From Hyphomicrobiales bacterium (lineage in GTDB: Bacteria; Pseudomonadota; Alphaproteobacteria; Rhizobiales; Rhizobiaceae), in the NCBI GenBank assembly GCA_900471605.1, contig UCEY01000065.1, positions 1-64,000 of the forward strand: DNA of 64,000 nt, given 5' to 3'. Of the stretch, positions 6,084 to 60,034 are shown in pieces (within the stretch, counting starts at the first letter, position 1; the number at the start of each line of letters is the position of its first letter). The notes beneath the pieces are model-generated. The model worked only from the letters and a program-made list of their open reading frames with translations, did no database searches and was not told where the DNA came from. The position numbers and the translations under genes were made by a program.

Positions 6084-7613
6084 TTGTCGTTTCATCGGAT
6101 GATCGCGTCCCTCGCCGTGCTGCTCACCCTATCGGTGCCGGTTCTGGCGCAGCAGCAGCGTGGCGGGGACGAGAACCGCGAACGCGCACGCCAGACGGAA
6201 CAGGGGGCCGGTGGCGGCATATTCGGCCTGATCCCGGCGGATTCCACAACCGAACATGTCTTCAAGGCGCCTTCCGGCGACCTGCCCTACACGGCGACGG
6301 CGGGCACGCTCGACCTGTTCGGCCAGGACGGCAACCGATCGGCGAAGATTTTCTACACCGCCTATATCGCGAAAAACAGGACGCCGGGCCGGCCGCTCAC
6401 CTTCGCCTTCAACGGAGGCCCGGGTGCCGCCTCCGCCTATCTGCATCTCGGCCTGGTCGGCCCGAAGATCCTGGAATTCGGCGCGACCGGCGACAACGGC
6501 ACGACACCCCGGCTGAAGGACAATCCGGAAAGCTGGCTCGCTTTCACCGATCTCGTGCTGATCGATCCGGTCGGCACCGGCTGGAGCCGTGCCGCCAGCA
6601 ACGATGCGGCCGGCAGCTATTACGGTGTGCGACAGGATGCCGACAGCCTGTCCAAGGCGATCGCTCTCTACGTCCAGAAGAACAACCGCCTCGATGCACC
6701 GAAATATCTGCTCGGCGAGAGTTACGGCGGCTTTCGCGCCGCCAAGGTTGCCGTGTCCCTGAAGAACGGTCAGGGAATGCTGGCTTCTGGCATAATCATG
6801 CTGTCGCCGCTGGTCGAAGGCCGTTTCCTTGCCAATTCCGAGGATCCCTTGAGCGCCGCGCTGCAGTTTCCGTCGCTGGCGGCGGCCGAGCTGGAGCGCC
6901 GCAACCAGTTCACGCCGGAAAAGCTCGCCGAGGCCGAGCGGTTTGCAATCGGCGATTACCTGACGGGACTTGCCGGTCCCTCCCCCGCCGGCCAGGCGGC
7001 GGAGACATTCTATGGCCGCGTGTCAGAGCTCACCGGTATTCCGAAGGATGTCGTCGCCCACACCCGCGGTTTCGTCGGCGATGTCTATGCCAAGCAGATG
7101 GGAGGGCCGGGGAAAGTCGTCAGCCCTTATGACGCGTCCTATTCAGTGCCGGATGCCTATCCGGAAGATGCCGTCACCCGGAACGACGACCCGATCCTCG
7201 AAGGTTACACACGTGCCTACGGCGCCGCTTTCGCGGCCTATGCCCGCAGCGAACTCGGGTTTGTGAGTGAGATGACCTATTCGCTGCTGAACGAGGACGT
7301 GAACCGTCGCTGGGAATGGAACGGCAGCCGCGGCGGAGACTCGCGCTCGCTCGCCAGCGCCTCCACCGATATCCGCGACCTGCTCTCGGTCATCCCGTCC
7401 TTCAAGTTGATGATCGCCCACGGCTACAGCGACGCGCTGACGCCTTATGGCGCCAGCCGCTACGTCATCGACCACCTGCCGCCCGACCTCGCAGCCGGAC
7501 GCGCCGGGCTCAAGGTCTATCGCGGCGGGCACATGTTCTACACCAGGCCGGATTCGCGCCGGAGCTTTGCAGCGGATGTCAGGGCGTTTTACGAGGCCAG
7601 GCCAACCGATTGA
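6084..7613 (+). CDS. Secreted S10-family serine carboxypeptidase homologue
   Basis: A ~509-residue exported peptidase. A signal peptide (hydrophobic IASLAVLLTLSVPVLA, cleavage near AQQQ) precedes the S10 alpha/beta-hydrolase fold: oxyanion segment FNGGPGAASAYLHLG, nucleophile in GESYGG, acid in HGYSDALTPY and the catalytic His in GGHMFY. Family members cleave C-terminal residues from peptides at acidic pH; in proteobacteria the substrate is usually unknown. The TTG at 6084 is chosen because AGGAGG lies eight bases before it; an ATG five codons downstream (6099) is the alternative. The 290 bp upstream of it, back to the divergent DUF1403 gene, shows nothing recognisable. Confidence 0.85.
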   Translation: MSFHRMIASLAVLLTLSVPVLAQQQRGGDENRERARQTEQGAGGGIFGLIPADSTTEHVFKAPSGDLPYTATAGTLDLFGQDGNRSAKIFYTAYIAKNRTPGRPLTFAFNGGPGAASAYLHLGLVGPKILEFGATGDNGTTPRLKDNPESWLAFTDLVLIDPVGTGWSRAASNDAAGSYYGVRQDADSLSKAIALYVQKNNRLDAPKYLLGESYGGFRAAKVAVSLKNGQGMLASGIIMLSPLVEGRFLANSEDPLSAALQFPSLAAAELERRNQFTPEKLAEAERFAIGDYLTGLAGPSPAGQAAETFYGRVSELTGIPKDVVAHTRGFVGDVYAKQMGGPGKVVSPYDASYSVPDAYPEDAVTRNDDPILEGYTRAYGAAFAAYARSELGFVSEMTYSLLNEDVNRRWEWNGSRGGDSRSLASASTDIRDLLSVIPSFKLMIAHGYSDALTPYGASRYVIDHLPPDLAAGRAGLKVYRGGHMFYTRPDSRRSFAADVRAFYEARPTD

Positions 7614-41534: not shown

Positions 41535-42355
41535 CGGCTTCTCCCTTTGTCAGACCATAGTGTTCCATGCCTGCCCCGATGGCATCGATGAGATCTTGCC
41601 CTGCTGCCAGTCCTCCCGCCACCGCGATGCGCACCCTGGCGATAGAGGCCCGTTCATCCCGGAAATCCGGGGCAGCCGGCATTCGCGCCGTTCCGCCGAA
41701 TGATCCGGGCCATCTCGGCGGCAGAAAGTACTTTCCCGGTCTCACGTCGCATTCCCTCCTTCGGCGAGGCAGACGCCCCCCTTGGTGATTTTCGGTTTTT
41801 TTCGGCCGGGGCACTGAAAGCTGCCTCGAATGTAGTTTTGTAAGTAGCACCTTCCAGTACCCCGTTCGGCGGTTTATGCCCGCAGCCCGATCGCCTCGAA
41901 ATGGACGACATCGGCTCTACCCGATGCCTCGCCCGACGGATCCTGCGCGGCTTTTATCGACGCGGTTTCCGGCAGGTTTTGAAGGACGGCAGTGTTTCAC
42001 CTGCCGCCGCACATTTCTATGGGCATAGCCCAGGCCAGGAGTTCCTCGCTGGCTGCAATCCTTTCGCGAACCCGAACGCCAGGGTTTTGCGTCCTACCCC
42101 TGACGTCCGCGCCGGCCCCGCCTCGCCGGCACGCCTGCCGGTGTATCCGTGACGGAACCGGGGCATTGTAGGCACGGTTTGAAGAGGCGGGGAAAACGGA
42201 CGGACATTTTTTCGCAAAAATTGACGCCGGTGCCACCCGGCAGTACTTTGTGCAGCAACCGGAGACGAACCGCTTCCTGCGGCGCCGGCGCGGTGCCGTC
42301 GATTTCCTCCGGGAATGCTGGCGGTGTTTTCAGCCATCTTCAGATCGGCACCCGA
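41535..42355. other. 821-bp gap between the mutase gene and pccA
   Basis: No complete gene is convincing here. On the minus strand, two frames in different phases (41654-41911 and ~41509-41677) together look like a short coding remnant: one carries RRETGKVLSAAEMARIIRR, the other PDFRDERASIARVRIAVAGG and continues into the mutase start region. Third-position GC is moderate. This may be a decayed gene or chance. I saw no cobalamin riboswitch box upstream of the mutase, nor a clear promoter. Confidence 0.35.
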
Positions 42356-53585: not shown

Positions 53586-54872
53586 TTAGCGCTTCAGAAG
53601 CGGGCCGATCTGGCCGCAGATCTGCTGGAGGGCTGCCGGGATATTCGCCTCCGGGCGCCAGACGGCATCGAGGCCGGAGCGAACCGCCTGCTGGATCTGC
53701 GCAAAGCCGGTATGGCCCGGAATGACCTTGCCGGTGGCGATGCCGGAGATCACGACCTTGTCGATCTGCTCCTGGCTGAGCAGCGGGTTGGTCTTTTTCA
53801 GGACTTCGGCGTTCAGCAGGGATTTGCGGGCCGACGGGAAGAACTGGCTGAGCTTGGCCGAGTTTTCCGGGTTCGTCATATAGGCGACGAATTCGGCGGC
53901 CGTCTTGGCGTTCTTGCCCGCCTGCATGACGCCGACGCCGGCCTGGCCGATCAGGGCATAGTCACCCGCCGGGCCCTTCGGCAGCGGCACGAGATCCCAG
54001 GCGAACGGCTTGTCCTTCGGCAGAAGCGAGGCGCGGCTGATCTGGGTGATGGTCATCGCGGCATTGCCGGCGAAGAAATCGACGCTCTCGCCAGGCCCCG
54101 GCATCGCCTTGTTCTTGAAGGCCGCCTGGTGGATGAAGGTCAGCGCGTCGACCATCGGCTTTTCGGCCATCGTGCAGGTCTTGCCGTCGGCGCTCCAGGG
54201 CGAGGCGCCCCAGCCGTTCCAGACGGAGGCGAGGTTCTGCCAGGTCTGGTAGTTGAAGTCGCGAACGATCAGGCCACCCTTGCCCGGCACCTTGCCGACG
54301 GCGGATGCGGTGGCGATGGCGTTCTCCCAGGTCCATTGCCCGGCCGCGATCATTTCCGCCGGCGTCTTGGCACCGGCCGCCTTGATGATGTCGTTGTTGA
54401 CGAACATCGCAAACGGCGAGGTCGAGAAAGGATAGGCATAGAGCTTGCCGTCCTTGGTCCAGCGCTCGGCAGCCGTGGCGCTCAGCTCTTCCGCGTTATA
54501 GCCCTTGGTGGCCTTCAGCGTGTCCGTCAGCGGAAAGAGCGCACCGGAATTGACGAAGTCATAGGCGGCGGTTTCGAAGATCCATGCCATGTCGGGCGCG
54601 TTGCCGCCGGCGATCTGGGTCGTCAGGGCCGTCGTATAGGTTTCGAACGGCAGCGACTCGTAGGTCACCGCGACGTTCGGATGGTCCTTCTTGAACCCGG
54701 CGGCGATGTCGTTGAAGAGTTTCAGATGCGCTTCGTTGGCGCTCCAGATCGTCATGCGCAGGTTGACCGCATCCTGCGCGTTGGCGATCCCGCCCGCAAG
54801 CGGCGACAGGCCGAGCGGCACGGCCACGGCCAGCGCCGCGACCGCGGATTTCAGTGTCCGATGATAGTTCAT
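53586..54872 (-). CDS. Sugar ABC importer binding protein, family 1
   Basis: A 428-residue periplasmic protein. Signal peptide to about residue 33 (AALAVAVPLGLSPLAGGIANAQ); then NLRMTIWSANEAHLKLFNDIAAGF and GNAPDMAWIFETAAYDFVNSGALFPL, typical of SBP_bac_1 proteins for oligosaccharides or glycosides. The substrate is unknown. It lies between the FAD oxidoreductase gene and the permeases in one operon. Confidence 0.92.
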   Translation of the reverse strand: MNYHRTLKSAVAALAVAVPLGLSPLAGGIANAQDAVNLRMTIWSANEAHLKLFNDIAAGFKKDHPNVAVTYESLPFETYTTALTTQIAGGNAPDMAWIFETAAYDFVNSGALFPLTDTLKATKGYNAEELSATAAERWTKDGKLYAYPFSTSPFAMFVNNDIIKAAGAKTPAEMIAAGQWTWENAIATASAVGKVPGKGGLIVRDFNYQTWQNLASVWNGWGASPWSADGKTCTMAEKPMVDALTFIHQAAFKNKAMPGPGESVDFFAGNAAMTITQISRASLLPKDKPFAWDLVPLPKGPAGDYALIGQAGVGVMQAGKNAKTAAEFVAYMTNPENSAKLSQFFPSARKSLLNAEVLKKTNPLLSQEQIDKVVISGIATGKVIPGHTGFAQIQQAVRSGLDAVWRPEANIPAALQQICGQIGPLLKR

Positions 54873-54922
54873 TCCCGTTCCTCCTCCAAAGATGGTTTAG
54901 ACAGACAGGCCGAAGGCCGCCC

Positions 54923-56542
54923 TCAGTAGGCCGCGATATCCGGCCAGCGCATTTCGATGCCTTCGCGGCCGAGCTCTCTCTGGAAATCGTGGAGCTTGCC
55001 GTCGTTTTCCTGGACCTGATGCGGCGTAAGACCCTTGTCGAGGCAATGGGCGGCGAGCATGCCGGCGACTTCGCCGATGTTCCACTCGACCGGGTGCAGC
55101 CGGTAGCAGCCATTGGTGATATGGGTGGTGCCGATATTCTTGCCGGCCGGGATGAGGTTCTTCACCCGCTGGGGCAGAAGCGCGCCGAGCGGGATCTCGA
55201 ACGGGCAGGACGGCACGTCGATATAGTTGTCGCCGCCGGTCGAGGGATGCAGGTCGATGCGGTACATGCCGATGCCGATACTGTCGCGGTAGTTGACCGC
55301 GCCCTTCTCGCCGCGCACCGAATAGGAAAGGTCCTGCTCGACGATGCGGGTGACCGGCTTGATGCGGCGGCTCTCGCGAATATAGGGGGCCATGGCGAGC
55401 CCGTGTTCGGTGCCGGTGATGTCGCCGCGCAGCCGCAGCCCCGGAAAACCCTGGCCGCCATCGACACGCGGCGCCTCGGTCTGCAGCCAGTAGAACAGCG
55501 AGTAGGAAAGGTCGGCGGCCGACTTGAGCTGCCTCGCCTTGTCCTCTTCGGAGAGGTCGATGATCGTGCCTTCCATATAGTCGATCATCGGCCAGTTCAC
55601 GAGGCAGATGTCGGAGGCGTAGGCACCGGGCACGAAATTGTTGCGGGCCGCGATGCGGCGGAAGATCCAGAGGTTTTCGTCGCCGCCGCCCTTGCGCTGG
55701 TCGGCATCGACGGCAAGCGGATCGTCGTTCGGATTGGGCGTGAACGAGCGGGTGGTGAAGTCCAGCGTGCGCGGATGCGGCGCCGTGAACCCGAGCAGCG
55801 GACCGCCCCAGAAATGCGGCTGGTACTTGCGCCAGTAATCGTAGTTCTCCGGCTTGTCGATCGTCTGGTCGCCGTCGACATGGTCGATCGCAAAGCAGAT
55901 CGATACGGCCTGGACATTGTCCGGCTGTGCCTCGGACGGTGCGCTCGGCTCGCCGGTATCGGACTGGGCCTCGAAGCCTTTCACATATTCGGTGCCGGTC
56001 ATCGGCAAGAGATCGCCAAGTTCGGTGGCATCGAGGATATAGGCGGCGGAAATGGTGATCTCGCGGCCGGTATCGCGGTGCCGAACGGTGACGGAGCGGA
56101 CCGTATCGCCCTCGACGTCAGCGGCAACCGGACGGTAGGGCTGCAGCACCTTCAGTTTGCCGGCGCCGCGATAGGGCATCAGCATCGCTTCCATGACGGC
56201 GAGGCTGACGCGCGGCTCGGCGCAGATGCGGCTGACCCAGCCGGCGCCGGGATTGAGGTCGCCCCAGGCCCGAGCGCCCTCGGTCAGCGGATAATGATCG
56301 CGGTAATAGCGGCGGATGCCTTCCCGCAGCTTCCGGTAGGAGCGGGTGATGCCGAACTGCTCGACCCAGGTATGCTCGTCCGACGGCACCGCCTGGCTGG
56401 TCAGCTGGCCGCCGATCCAGTCGAACTCCTCGGTCATGATCACGTTGCGGCCGGCCCGGCATGCGCCCAGTGCTGCCGCGACGCCGCCGAGACCGCCGCC
56501 CACTACCAGAATATCCGTATGCATCTCTGTCACGTTGATCAC
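54923..56542 (-). CDS. FAD-dependent oxidoreductase (PF12831 type)
   Basis: A 539-residue flavoprotein. The dinucleotide-binding motif VVGGGLGGVAAALGA is at residues ~14-28, with TEEFDWIGGQLTSQAVPSDEH after it, and the second FAD contact AAYILDATELGDLLPM further in; near the C-terminus LIPAGKNIGTTHITNGCYRLHP closes the FAD site. This matches the FAD_oxidored family found in sugar-utilisation loci (some relatives lie next to xanthan/uronate genes). No signal peptide, so it is cytosolic. The GTG at 56542 overlaps the LacI stop (GTGA); an ATG six codons later is the alternative. Probably oxidises the imported sugar derivative. Confidence 0.85.
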   Translation of the reverse strand: MINVTEMHTDILVVGGGLGGVAAALGACRAGRNVIMTEEFDWIGGQLTSQAVPSDEHTWVEQFGITRSYRKLREGIRRYYRDHYPLTEGARAWGDLNPGAGWVSRICAEPRVSLAVMEAMLMPYRGAGKLKVLQPYRPVAADVEGDTVRSVTVRHRDTGREITISAAYILDATELGDLLPMTGTEYVKGFEAQSDTGEPSAPSEAQPDNVQAVSICFAIDHVDGDQTIDKPENYDYWRKYQPHFWGGPLLGFTAPHPRTLDFTTRSFTPNPNDDPLAVDADQRKGGGDENLWIFRRIAARNNFVPGAYASDICLVNWPMIDYMEGTIIDLSEEDKARQLKSAADLSYSLFYWLQTEAPRVDGGQGFPGLRLRGDITGTEHGLAMAPYIRESRRIKPVTRIVEQDLSYSVRGEKGAVNYRDSIGIGMYRIDLHPSTGGDNYIDVPSCPFEIPLGALLPQRVKNLIPAGKNIGTTHITNGCYRLHPVEWNIGEVAGMLAAHCLDKGLTPHQVQENDGKLHDFQRELGREGIEMRWPDIAAY

Positions 56543-57570
56543 GTCCGTCTTTTTGCGGGTCCGAGGGTTTCCCCCTCGACCGGTTCACAGGTCAGAAGAA
56601 TTTGGCCGCCGGCATCGCCGCTCTCGATGCGACGCACCAGCATGGCGGTCGCCTGGCGGCCCATCTCCTCGCGGGGAATGTCGAAGGCGGTGAACTGCAC
56701 ATGGCTGCGCTCGGCGCGGATATGGCTGCCGAGCACGACCGCAGAAAAATCGCCGGGAATGGAAAGGCCGCGCTCGCGGGCGGCGGCTTCGACGCGCACC
56801 GCATCGGCAAGTTCGACGAAGAAGGCGACGGTGGCGCCGCTGGCGAGCAGAGCATCGAGAATCTCTCCAGCCGGCCGGCCGGCTGCCTCGACATGCAGGA
56901 CGAGTTCCAGCCCCTCGCCAAGAGCGGCGGCGAAGCCGTTCCAGCGATCGGCGGTCGATTCAGCCGGTCCCGGCGGGCCGATATAGGCGAGCCTGGAATG
57001 CCCCAGCGCCCTCGCCTTCCCGACGAGCGCCAGGGTACCGTTCGCATAGTCGCCGCCGACATAGGGAACCGGCCCGCCGGCATCCTCGCGCCGGCCGATC
57101 GCCACGAACGGATAGTCGCCGGCCACCAGCCGCGTCAGTTCGGCGCGGTCGAATTCGCGGCCAAGCACCAGGCAGCCGTCGGCGATCCTCAGCCGGTTGC
57201 CATCGGCAAAGATCTTGCGGTCCTTGCCGACGCCCGCACCGGTGAGGAGCAGAAGGTCGTAATTCTGGATCTGCGCCTCTTCCTCGATACCGAGCAGGAA
57301 GGGCGTGAAGAAATCCGCCTGGGCGCTCGGAAACGCCGGCTCGTAGGTGAACACGCCGAGAATGCGGTTCAGCCCCTTGGCCATGCGCCGCGCGATCGGA
57401 TCTGCGACGTAGCCGGTGGTGCGGATGACCTGCTGGACCCGTTCACGGGTTTCCTGGGGAATGCGCGCCAAAGCTGTCGGCGCACCGTTCAGCACAAGCG
57501 AAACGGTCGCCTGGCTGACGCCCGCGAGTTTCGCAATATCATGCTGAGTCAAGCGCTTAGGCGTGGCCAC
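56539..57570 (-). CDS. LacI-family regulator, first gene of the sugar operon
   Basis: A 343-residue regulator with the LacI helix-turn-helix at residues 6-28 (LTQHDIAKLAGVSQATVSLVLNG) and hinge helix, then a periplasmic-binding-like sugar domain (ILGVFTYEPAFPSAQADFFTPFLLGIEEEA, VVLGSHIRAERS). Two LacI-type operators lie just upstream of its start, so it represses itself, the rest of the operon and the divergent SGNH hydrolase until the sugar binds. Confidence 0.93.
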   Translation of the reverse strand: MATPKRLTQHDIAKLAGVSQATVSLVLNGAPTALARIPQETRERVQQVIRTTGYVADPIARRMAKGLNRILGVFTYEPAFPSAQADFFTPFLLGIEEEAQIQNYDLLLLTGAGVGKDRKIFADGNRLRIADGCLVLGREFDRAELTRLVAGDYPFVAIGRREDAGGPVPYVGGDYANGTLALVGKARALGHSRLAYIGPPGPAESTADRWNGFAAALGEGLELVLHVEAAGRPAGEILDALLASGATVAFFVELADAVRVEAAARERGLSIPGDFSAVVLGSHIRAERSHVQFTAFDIPREEMGRQATAMLVRRIESGDAGGQILLTCEPVEGETLGPAKRRT

Positions 57571-57597
57571 GCAACATCCTCCCGATCCCTCTTGACT

Positions 57598-57629
57598 GCT
57601 AATGCGTATTAGCAGCTAATACGTATAAA
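57598..57629. promoter_or_regulatory. Two tandem LacI-type operators
   Basis: Two near-identical sites centred on CG: CTAATGCGTATTAG (57598-57611, part of the perfect repeat CTGCTAAT-GCGT-ATTAGCAG at 57596-57615) and CTAATACGTATAAA (57616-57629). Their centres are 17 bp apart. They lie 28-60 bp before the LacI start and ~50-80 bp before the divergent hydrolase gene, overlapping a TTGACT (57592-57597) that may be a -35 element for the plus strand. Confidence 0.8.
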
Positions 57630-57675
57630 CAGGATAAGCCCGATCCTTGTCAAGCGGGAAAATGAAGGAGACCTG

Positions 57676-58338
57676 ATGACCTTTGGGGAGCATCTGAAAT
57701 CGCTCGGAATTTCCGGTACCCGCGTTTTCGGCGACAGCATCACCGCCGGGTTCAATGCCAGCCGGTCCGAACGTGCCTGGCCGGCGCTGTTCGCCGAAGC
57801 GGTCGACGGCTTTCCGATCCGCAACCACGCAATTCCGGGAACCGTGCTGCAAGGCTCGATACTCGCCGACGGAAAACCGAGGCCGAACAATGGCGTCGGC
57901 CGGTTTGCCGCGGCGCTTCTCGACCGGCCTCACCAGGATGCGATCCTGATCCTCTACGGCTATAACGACGCCCGATACACGGCGGCGCCGGAAACGATGA
58001 ACGTTGCGGGGTTCGTGCGAGACTACACCAGGATACTCGAGGCCCTCGTCGCGGCCGGCCATCGCGGAAGGATCGCGATCGGCAGCCCGCCCTATATCCC
58101 CGACGCGGGTTTTTCGGTCGGCAGCACCGGCTTTACAGGCCAGACGCGGGAGGGATTCAAGGCTTATGCCGGAGCGGTAGAAGAACTCGCAGAGCGGTTT
58201 TCGGTTTTCTACGCACCGGTCTACGAGTCGATGACCGTCTTCGGCGACGGCGCCCTCGCCTCCCCCGATATCACCCACCCGAACGACGAGGGGCATCGGG
58301 TGATTTTCGAGGCGTTCCTTAAGGCCGAAAGCCTGTAG
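57676..58338 (+). CDS. SGNH/GDSL-family hydrolase
   Basis: A 220-residue esterase-fold protein without signal peptide. The SGNH blocks are clear: catalytic Ser in FGDSITAG (residue ~20), Asn in YGYNDAR (~97) and the Asp-His pair in DITHPNDEGH (~200-210). Such enzymes remove acetyl or other acyl groups from sugars. Its placement opposite the LacI-controlled operon, sharing the operators, suggests deacylation of the imported sugar. An AAGGAGACC precedes the ATG. Confidence 0.9.
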   Translation: MTFGEHLKSLGISGTRVFGDSITAGFNASRSERAWPALFAEAVDGFPIRNHAIPGTVLQGSILADGKPRPNNGVGRFAAALLDRPHQDAILILYGYNDARYTAAPETMNVAGFVRDYTRILEALVAAGHRGRIAIGSPPYIPDAGFSVGSTGFTGQTREGFKAYAGAVEELAERFSVFYAPVYESMTVFGDGALASPDITHPNDEGHRVIFEAFLKAESL

Positions 58339-58375
58339 CGCAGGCATGCGCCCGCTGGCCTATGCCAGGTGGCGC

Positions 58376-58627
58376 CTATTCCTCCGCCTTCATGCGGGAA
58401 CCCGTCGGGGCCGCTCGGGCCCCCTCGCCCGGAACCGCGTCGCCAAAAGCCGCAGCGGAAGCCGGCTCGCTTACCTGATCCAGCCTCCGCAAGAGATCAT
58501 CGAAAACAGTTTCGGCTGGATCCTCGAGCCGGTACATCGACTGAACGCGGCGCTGGATCTGGCCGTCGGCATAATAACGTTGAAATGAGCGAAGTTCGTC
58601 GTAGTCCTTGTGCAAATCCTGGTCCAT
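58376..58627 (-). CDS. NepR-like small protein (putative anti-sigma factor)
   Basis: An 83-residue, charged, helical protein. The central stretch IQRRVQSMYRLEDP-AETVFDDLLRRLD follows the NepR pattern I-x3-L-x2-MY ... P ... F-x-DLL-x2-LD, with the MY, F, DLL and LD positions conserved and two fewer residues in the linker. NepR binds the general stress sigma factor EcfG and is released by phosphorylated PhyR. The usual nepR-ecfG-phyR neighbours are absent, so this would be an orphan paralogue. GGAG eight bases before the ATG at 58627 fixes the start (a GTG at 58648 is also in frame), and an EcfG-like promoter lies just upstream. Homology is my reading of a short motif, so moderate confidence. 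Confidence 0.5.
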   Translation of the reverse strand: MDQDLHKDYDELRSFQRYYADGQIQRRVQSMYRLEDPAETVFDDLLRRLDQVSEPASAAAFGDAVPGEGARAAPTGSRMKAEE

Positions 58628-58655
58628 GAATGTCTCCAAAATGCTCACCCGACAA

Positions 58656-58680
58656 AACCGGCGAGCGTCCGGGTCGTTCC
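58656..58680 (-). promoter_or_regulatory. EcfG-type general stress promoter
   Basis: Read on the minus strand: GGAAC (58676-58680), 16 bp, then GGTT (58656-58659), against the alphaproteobacterial EcfG consensus GGAAC-N16/17-CGTT. The -35 is perfect and the -10 differs at one base. The ATG of the NepR-like gene is ~22 nt beyond the expected start of transcription. Confidence 0.55.
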
Positions 58681-58993: not shown

Positions 58994-60034
58994 TTGAAAG
59001 CCAAGATCGGCTTGAAAGATATTGCCCGGGACGCCAACGTTTCGCTCAGCACCGCGTCACACGTCCTTAACGGCACTGCCCCCATATCCGTGGAAGTCCG
59101 AGACCGGGTGCTCAGCTCCGCCCAAAGGCTGGGCTATCTGGAAAAACGCCGGAGCCGCGCCACGATCGCGACGCTTCGCACGATCCTTCTTGCCGTCACC
59201 GCCGAAGCGGCGGCTCACAGCGACATCAACCTGGTGAGCTGGACGATGCTGAACGGCCTGCGCCAGGAATGCGAGCGGCTCAGCATCCGCATCGTCCCCT
59301 TCGTCAGCGCCGGCAGCCGGATCGACGCCGGCGAGGTGCGCCGCATGGCCCAGGCCGAAAATGTCGACGGAATAGTCGTCCTCAACGACGACCGTCCCGA
59401 ATTGATCCGCGCGCTTGCCGGCGGGCGCACGCCTCTCGTCATCCTCAACGGCGAGGATCCCTCGATGCTCGTCGACACGGTGACCGGCGAAAACCGCTTC
59501 GGCGCCCGGCAGGGAACCGAATACCTGCTGTCGCTCGGCCATCGCCGTATCCTGCACCTGACCTGGAAAGGCCGGACCACCATCCGCCGGCGATATGACG
59601 GTTATGCGGACGCGCATCTTGCGGCAGGACTTGCCCCCTTGCCGGAGATGATCGTCGAGGCAGAGGGATACGAGCCCGCGCAGGGCGAGCAGGCGGTTCG
59701 CCAGCTCATTGCAGAAGACCGGACCTTGAGGGGCGCGACCGCCATCTTCTGCGCCGCGGACAATCTCGCCCTCGGCTGTCTCAGGGCGTTCGCTGCTCTC
59801 GGCATCCGCGCGCCCGAGGACATCTCCGTGCTCGGCTTCGACGATATCGTGCCCGGAGAGTTCAGCACGCCGCCGCTCTCGACGGTGCAGTTGCCTACCG
59901 ACCGGCTGGGGGCCGCCGCCATCGGCCTGCTGGAGCAGAGGCTGCTTGCCAACGATCCGTTGCGGCCGGCCTACCGGCTGGAGCTAGGCTGTAAGCTGGT
60001 GCTGCGGGGCAGCGTCGCGCCACCCCGCAAGTGA
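58994..60034 (+). CDS. LacI-family regulator next to the second sugar importer
   Basis: A 346-residue LacI regulator starting at a TTG with GAAAGAAGACC upstream. Helix-turn-helix at residues 7-29 (LKDIARDANVSLSTASHVLNG), hinge, and sugar-binding domain (INLVSWTMLNGLRQECERL, then VDGIVVLNDD and ISVLGFDDIVPGEFSTPPLSTV). It converges on the importer genes with a 1-bp gap, so it is not in their operon but is likely their regulator. Confidence 0.92.
   Translation: MKAKIGLKDIARDANVSLSTASHVLNGTAPISVEVRDRVLSSAQRLGYLEKRRSRATIATLRTILLAVTAEAAAHSDINLVSWTMLNGLRQECERLSIRIVPFVSAGSRIDAGEVRRMAQAENVDGIVVLNDDRPELIRALAGGRTPLVILNGEDPSMLVDTVTGENRFGARQGTEYLLSLGHRRILHLTWKGRTTIRRRYDGYADAHLAAGLAPLPEMIVEAEGYEPAQGEQAVRQLIAEDRTLRGATAIFCAADNLALGCLRAFAALGIRAPEDISVLGFDDIVPGEFSTPPLSTVQLPTDRLGAAAIGLLEQRLLANDPLRPAYRLELGCKLVLRGSVAPPRK

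Follow-up and report, generated by a model that had tools for sequence, protein, structure and literature searches.

The window analysed here, a stretch of 64,000 nucleotides from a Rhizobiaceae genome (G000), carries a gene for a NepR-like small protein of 83 amino acids, which occupies positions 58376..58627 of the minus strand and starts with an ATG at 58627. A ribosome-binding site, GGAGA, lies just upstream at 58633..58637, followed by a predicted EcfG-type promoter with a GGTT -10 element at 58656..58659 and a GGAAC -35 element at 58676..58680, all on the minus strand. The first-pass annotation had proposed an orphan NepR-like gene under its own EcfG-type promoter across 58376-58680; this span takes in both the open reading frame (ORF) and the promoter, and both were found there. 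On one side, the gene converges with a GDSL-type hydrolase gene (57676..58338, plus strand, PF13472), and on the other it diverges from a gene for a LacI-type regulator (58994..60034, plus strand, PF00356/PF13377).

The longest ORF in this frame opens with a GTG at 58648, which would give 90 amino acids and lies just 7 nt behind the -10 box. We rejected this start and prefer the ATG at 58627, because GGAGA stands at -10 before this codon and the start position is common to the relatives of the gene described below. The codon at this position is ATG in three of the six orphan genes and TTG in the other three, and GGAGA is found at -10 in all six, one of which (L009) has a further copy at -24.

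We found five relatives of the gene, all of them in Rhizobiaceae, which makes six orphan genes with the window copy. One (L056) is present in a single genome (G414) among the 56 others in the window's genus, three (L009, L010 and L088, from G157, G075 and G831) come from 3 of the 21 genomes of another genus of the family, and the fifth (L011) is carried by a megaplasmid of Neorhizobium sp. EC2-8, the sole record among 72,556 plasmid records to be matched by tblastn with the window protein. The same plasmid search with the L009 protein again returned Neorhizobium sp. EC2-8, and with the L010 and L088 proteins matched no record. In at least one strain of the window's lineage, the megaplasmid that carries the gene is typed as conjugative. 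A related-locus search of genome contigs with the window protein gave no relative. Wider searches used two profiles, A1, built from an alignment of four orphans, and A3, built from five. Within the window's genus, A1 gave six weak matches (E 0.006-0.077) besides G000 and G414; one of these, L061, is by eye no nepR, and the frames of the other five are 147-1047 amino acids long. An order-wide profile search of 397 genomes, with about 13 candidates scored per genome, gave a strong score to the window's own copy only. Both this search and the one of 394 genomes described below scored some 13-14 first-look candidates in each genome, so that absence from either is not firm.

The orphan gene is under purifying selection, because dN is 0.10-0.25 against a dS of 0.79-2.6 in four pairs within the two lineages, i.e. 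a dN/dS of approximately 0.10-0.28 over codons 2-57. At the level of sequence, then, the gene is real, as the comparison with its relatives confirms.

The EcfG promoter consensus is given in the literature as GAAC-N16,17-C/GGTT (PMC4814048), and the window matches it with GGAAC-N16-GGTT on the minus strand, from 58680 to 58656. A lone match of this kind is at chance level: the bare pattern occurs 3 times in the window, against 3.03 +/- 1.77 expected from shuffles. The case for the promoter therefore rests on its conservation in the relatives. GGAAC-N16/17-NGTT is kept upstream of all six orphan genes, despite the strong synonymous divergence within the two lineages, with CGGAAC identical in 6/6 and the -35 box placed 53-60 nt before the start. 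On one strand, the background frequency of this loose pattern is 0.011 per 100 nt in seven longer stretches, with the orphan sites counted in, and 0.026 per 100 nt across most loci. The pattern first proposed, GGAAC-N16-(C/G)GTT, is thus present in the window and survives as NGTT throughout; its strict C or G before GTT is seen in only three of the six promoters, the other three having A or T. Overall, the comparison supports the prediction of an EcfG-type promoter. The two further matches to the pattern in the window, at 7180-7206 and 42154-42179 on the plus strand, correspond to the chance frequency.

These counts bear on the reading in which a chance ORF happens to follow a chance promoter. 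An 83-amino acid ORF is by itself unremarkable in such G+C-rich DNA, which is rich in ORFs (67 of at least 40 amino acids overlap the last 10 kb of the window), and the promoter pattern is at chance level window-wide. We nevertheless find such a coincidence barely credible, as it is already contradicted by five relatives that share the start, the ribosome-binding site and the promoter, and by a dN/dS well below 1.

None of the six orphan proteins matches the Pfam NepR family, PF18557 (0/6, with the window protein and four relatives searched at E <= 10 and L088 at E <= 1); as a control, the canonical NepR of the same genome scores 56.6 bits with this model. Pfam and NCBIfam gave the window protein no family, NCBIfam having been searched with the window protein alone, and a single-sequence search of the protein's own genome did not find the resident nepR. 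Using the A1 profile, a search of 394 Rhizobiaceae genomes returned 11 matches at E <= 0.01 besides its own rows. Eight of these are PF18557-positive NepRs (42.5-59.4 bits) from five genera, encoded beside phyR in all eight cases and beside ecfG in seven; the other three (L047, L048 and L050) are not nepR. With A3, the order-wide search returned two matches at E <= 0.005 other than its own sequences: L084, a nepR that adjoins ecfG in a member of another family, and L085, which is not a nepR; nepRs that A1 had matched, e.g. in G297, were missed by this search. None of the NepR chains in the PDB was found with A3 at E <= 10, and four of them are found with the canonical NepR of the genome.

For direct comparison, we assembled 31 canonical NepRs, i.e. 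the 30 best-scoring matches of a 101-genome search plus the genome's own, with weaker second copies left out. hhalign aligned five orphans with these sequences at a probability of 85.5% (P 5.7e-6, score 30.9) over residues 20-57, covering both helices with one 2-residue gap in the linker, and 0/300 column shuffles were as good (best score 21.7). A plain HMM of the 31 canonical NepRs gave the five orphans low scores (7.6-11.6 bits), and its reported alignments were confined to helix 2; yet no more than 1 in 2000 shuffles of each orphan protein reached the real score. In the reverse direction, an orphan HMM placed 10 of the 31 NepRs above the best shuffled NepR (9.5 bits). The NepR relationship read from the sequence in the first-pass annotation is borne out by the A1 matches and by the hhalign comparison with its shuffles, and the homology of the orphans to canonical NepR is supported by profile methods.

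The failure of all six proteins with PF18557, the low HMM scores on a single helix and the lack of a PDB NepR among the A3 matches would also fit a small EcfG-regulated protein with no relation to NepR, in which the likeness of the two helices arose by chance or convergence. We judge this very improbable, given that eight of the 11 matches of the reverse profile search are nepR genes, that both helices align with one short gap and that column shuffles never match the real score. As the orphans fail the family model and depart from NepR in linker length and gene neighborhood, we describe them as a NepR-like variant and not as members of PF18557.

The NepR-like core comprises residues 24-53 (helix 1, a short linker and helix 2), encoded at 58469..58558 of the minus strand, as delineated by invariant residues, the hhalign alignment and a low-confidence structure model. 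This model has helices at residues 3-31 and 38-53 and a loose tail (mean pLDDT 67.9, pTM 0.24, low confidence). M31, Y32, F42, L46, R48, L49 and D50 are identical in the six orphans, and the core motif first noticed in the window is conserved as MY...F..[LV]L.RLD in 6/6. Y32, F42, L46 and L49 are invariant across 13 aligned rows (six orphans and seven NepRs). Canonical NepR (PF18557, encoded here on contig C83) thus shares with the orphans a two-helix core and an L/V...Y...F..LL..L pattern. It differs from them in the linker: on the alignment, the Tyr-to-Phe distance is 12 in 31/31 canonical NepRs and 10 in five orphans and 9 in the sixth, so that the orphans are 2-3 residues short in the linker, and they have lost the P-D-R-F turn. 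In the open-licence literature, we found no account of a rhizobial branch of NepR with a shortened linker.

Functional residues can be mapped from Sphingomonas melonis. L32 and Y36 of its NepR (chain 2lfw_B), a hydrophobic and an aromatic residue that contact PhyR, correspond to V28 and Y32 of the window protein, with L/V and Y at these positions in 6/6 orphans. According to PMC6599016, an alanine change of L32 or Y36 impairs S. melonis NepR, and equivalents of both residues are present in its paralog NepR2. R33 is Q in 6/6 orphans and M48 is F here; the same report describes NepR activity as unreduced by R33A and NepR2 as unaffected by M46A.

The surroundings of the gene are those of an orphan, as first proposed. 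In its own genome, phyR, nepR and ecfG lie together at a single locus on contig C83, and no match to any of the three was found on the window's contig (C91); nor was there a phyR or ecfG match at E <= 1e-8 in ten orphan stretches of 2-19 kb each. The window copy sits in a sugar ABC-transporter region. In all three known loci of its lineage (the window, L011 and L063), the gene lies between the LacI gene and a block with the hydrolase, a second LacI, an FAD oxidoreductase and a solute-binding protein, the GDSL hydrolase gene being adjacent to the orphan in each. In the window, this block spans 53586-58627 and runs from the solute-binding protein through the FAD oxidoreductase, LacI and GDSL hydrolase genes to the NepR-like gene. 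It is absent from the orphan-free loci L101 (N. galegae) and L103, within approximately 4 and 8.6 kb, respectively, where the LacI-transporter part is present. The divergent LacI is carried by 24 genomes of the genus; of 12 loci compared, 10 lack the orphan, the hydrolase and the second LacI in the adjoining 1.5 kb, and the remaining two are the orphan carriers. The simplest reading is that a block was gained or lost. Among the neighbors scanned, no stress gene was recognized beside the orphan in this lineage.

In the other genus, two of the three loci (L065 and L102, from G075 and G831) have the orphan directly downstream, on the same strand, of a gene for a PAS-HWE histidine kinase with an H-R-x-K-N motif, the two kinases being 78% identical; the third (G157) ends at a contig end. 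Kinases acting on PhyR are reported to be of the HRXXN type (PMC4814048), and the PAS-HWE kinase and the NepR-like protein are possibly a kinase-regulator pair. Genes for catalase and DUF892 in G075, and for Ku and DUF4112 in G831, lie within approximately 10 kb, and a DUF3597 gene is found near the orphan in G157.

Kinase adjacency and the shortened linker suggest a further reading, in which a NepR-derived protein has been re-targeted to a new partner, e.g. an HWE kinase or a single-domain response regulator. Methylobacterium extorquens offers a parallel in META1_2700, its third NepR homolog, which has a putative EcfG-type promoter and for which PMC4814048 reports neither co-precipitation of PhyR nor an effect of overexpression. 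We consider a new partner unlikely, as the residues that are kept are those of the NepR core, and the kinase is not adjacent in the window's lineage: nothing in G414 matches it at E <= 1e-60, and the window's genome and G157 have, on other contigs, best relatives of it with no more than 52% and 50% identity, respectively.

In the switch as it is known, EcfG is held by NepR and freed when phosphorylated PhyR draws NepR away; the same source points to the scant knowledge of negative feedback in the general stress response of alphaproteobacteria (PMC4814048). A NepR look-alike made by EcfG could compete for PhyR or hold EcfG, and either would amount to negative feedback. The negative-feedback arm suggested in the first-pass annotation is plausible by analogy, and its principle, an EcfG-driven NepR paralog, is already published; it is not new, because it has been described for S. 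melonis NepR2 and M. extorquens META2_0735. Both are reported to be EcfG-dependent, to bind PhyR and to dampen the response (PMC6599016, PMC4814048). NepR2, of strain Fr1, resembles the orphans by its description as a NepR-like paralog of the EcfG regulon that BLAST could not predict conclusively, and in keeping the hydrophobic and aromatic positions that contact PhyR. Judging from the residue numbers given (35-46 versus 36-48), its linker is one residue shorter than that of NepR (PMC6599016), against 2-3 residues in the orphans. NepR2 differs from the window gene in that it adjoins ecfG, whereas the window gene is on another contig than phyR, nepR and ecfG, and in that its PhyR binding and negative effect are experimental, whereas those of the window gene are predicted. 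META2_0735 (MexAM1_META2p0735 of strain AM1), compared here by description, is likewise a NepR homolog with an EcfG-type promoter; it is described as stress induced in an EcfG- and PhyR-dependent manner, and its overexpression as rendering cells stress-sensitive (PMC4814048). Its binding and induction are experimental, unlike those predicted for the window gene.

We slightly favor the reading that the window gene encodes a NepR-like protein that is induced by EcfG and exerts negative feedback mainly by acting on PhyR, as NepR2 and META2_0735 do. EcfG itself would switch on the gene of this divergent NepR paralog, so that the protein would accumulate while EcfG is active. With its NepR-like helix pair it would then bind activated PhyR, so that canonical NepR, displaced from PhyR, could recapture EcfG and the response would be damped or shut off. 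The comparison provides, at sequence level, a real gene with NepR homology, a conserved EcfG-type promoter and a location away from phyR, nepR and ecfG. From these, we infer that EcfG drives the gene, that the protein binds PhyR with a negative effect and that its main target is PhyR and not EcfG.

Besides these precedents, the reading agrees with the nepR matches of A1 and L084, the shuffle-tested hhalign alignment, the retained V28 and Y32, a promoter kept across substantial synonymous divergence, and the kinase, catalase, DUF892, Ku and DUF4112 genes around the orphan in the other genus. It has to accommodate the absence of PF18557 matches and the low NepR HMM scores, the resident nepR missed by the single-sequence search, the nepRs and PDB chains missed by A3 and the three A1 matches that are not nepR, as well as the altered linker and turn, the R33-to-Q substitution (at a position where R33A was without effect in S. 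melonis), the inactivity of META1_2700 and the placement of the window gene among sugar-uptake genes.

The principal alternative is a second anti-sigma factor, as the first-pass annotation proposed, which would bind EcfG (or the EcfG-like sigma factor encoded on C43) directly until PhyR releases it. NepR homology is equally compatible with such a role, and Sinorhizobium meliloti, of a related genus, provides a precedent in RsiA1 and RsiA2, NepR paralogs compared here by description only, each of which reportedly binds the two PhyR proteins as well as the sigma factor RpoE2 (PMC4814048). The genome also has two possible targets, EcfG and its 41% identical paralog on C43. However, EcfG binding by META2_0735 was not seen in a two-hybrid test, for which the authors allow for misses (PMC4814048), and none could be demonstrated for NepR2, the proteins being unstable in that test (PMC6599016); both tests could thus have missed binding. 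In addition, the orphans have changes in the linker and the P-D-R-F turn, both of which are constant across the 31 canonical NepRs. We regard direct EcfG binding as possible though rather doubtful, and favor PhyR as the target because PhyR binding has been shown for both dampening EcfG-dependent paralogs; the computation itself does not discriminate between PhyR and EcfG.

If the PhyR-directed reading is true, EcfG-driven NepR paralogs acting on PhyR are not peculiar to Methylobacterium and Sphingomonas, and more such paralogs may hide below the detection of the family model. A wider and more tentative reading, which we would not expect to hold in full, is that the six proteins form a distinct short-linker NepR branch unseen by the Pfam model, pure PhyR antagonists whose shortened turn misfits the sigma factor, and that their gene is an accessory one, which travels with an HRXXN kinase in one genus and inside a sugar-utilization block in another, there in at least one strain on the conjugative-typed megaplasmid. 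Some strains would then possess a separately acquired off-switch for the stress response. The short linker would also give direct structural access to the features of NepR that set the binding of PhyR apart from that of the sigma factor.

On C43, the gene of the second EcfG-like sigma factor lies near two Ku genes and a LigD gene. Approximately 5 kb from it, also near the Ku and LigD genes, a small protein (L003 1399-1599) resembles the second half of NepR only (E-K-E-D-V-P-D-R-L-L-Q-L). Short frames that match approximately the second half of the NepR model, below the cut-off, occur in 11/101 Rhizobiaceae genomes, of which only the C43 one was read. Two NepR genes above the Pfam cut-off are present in 12/101 Rhizobiaceae genomes, and NepR duplication is therefore common in this family.
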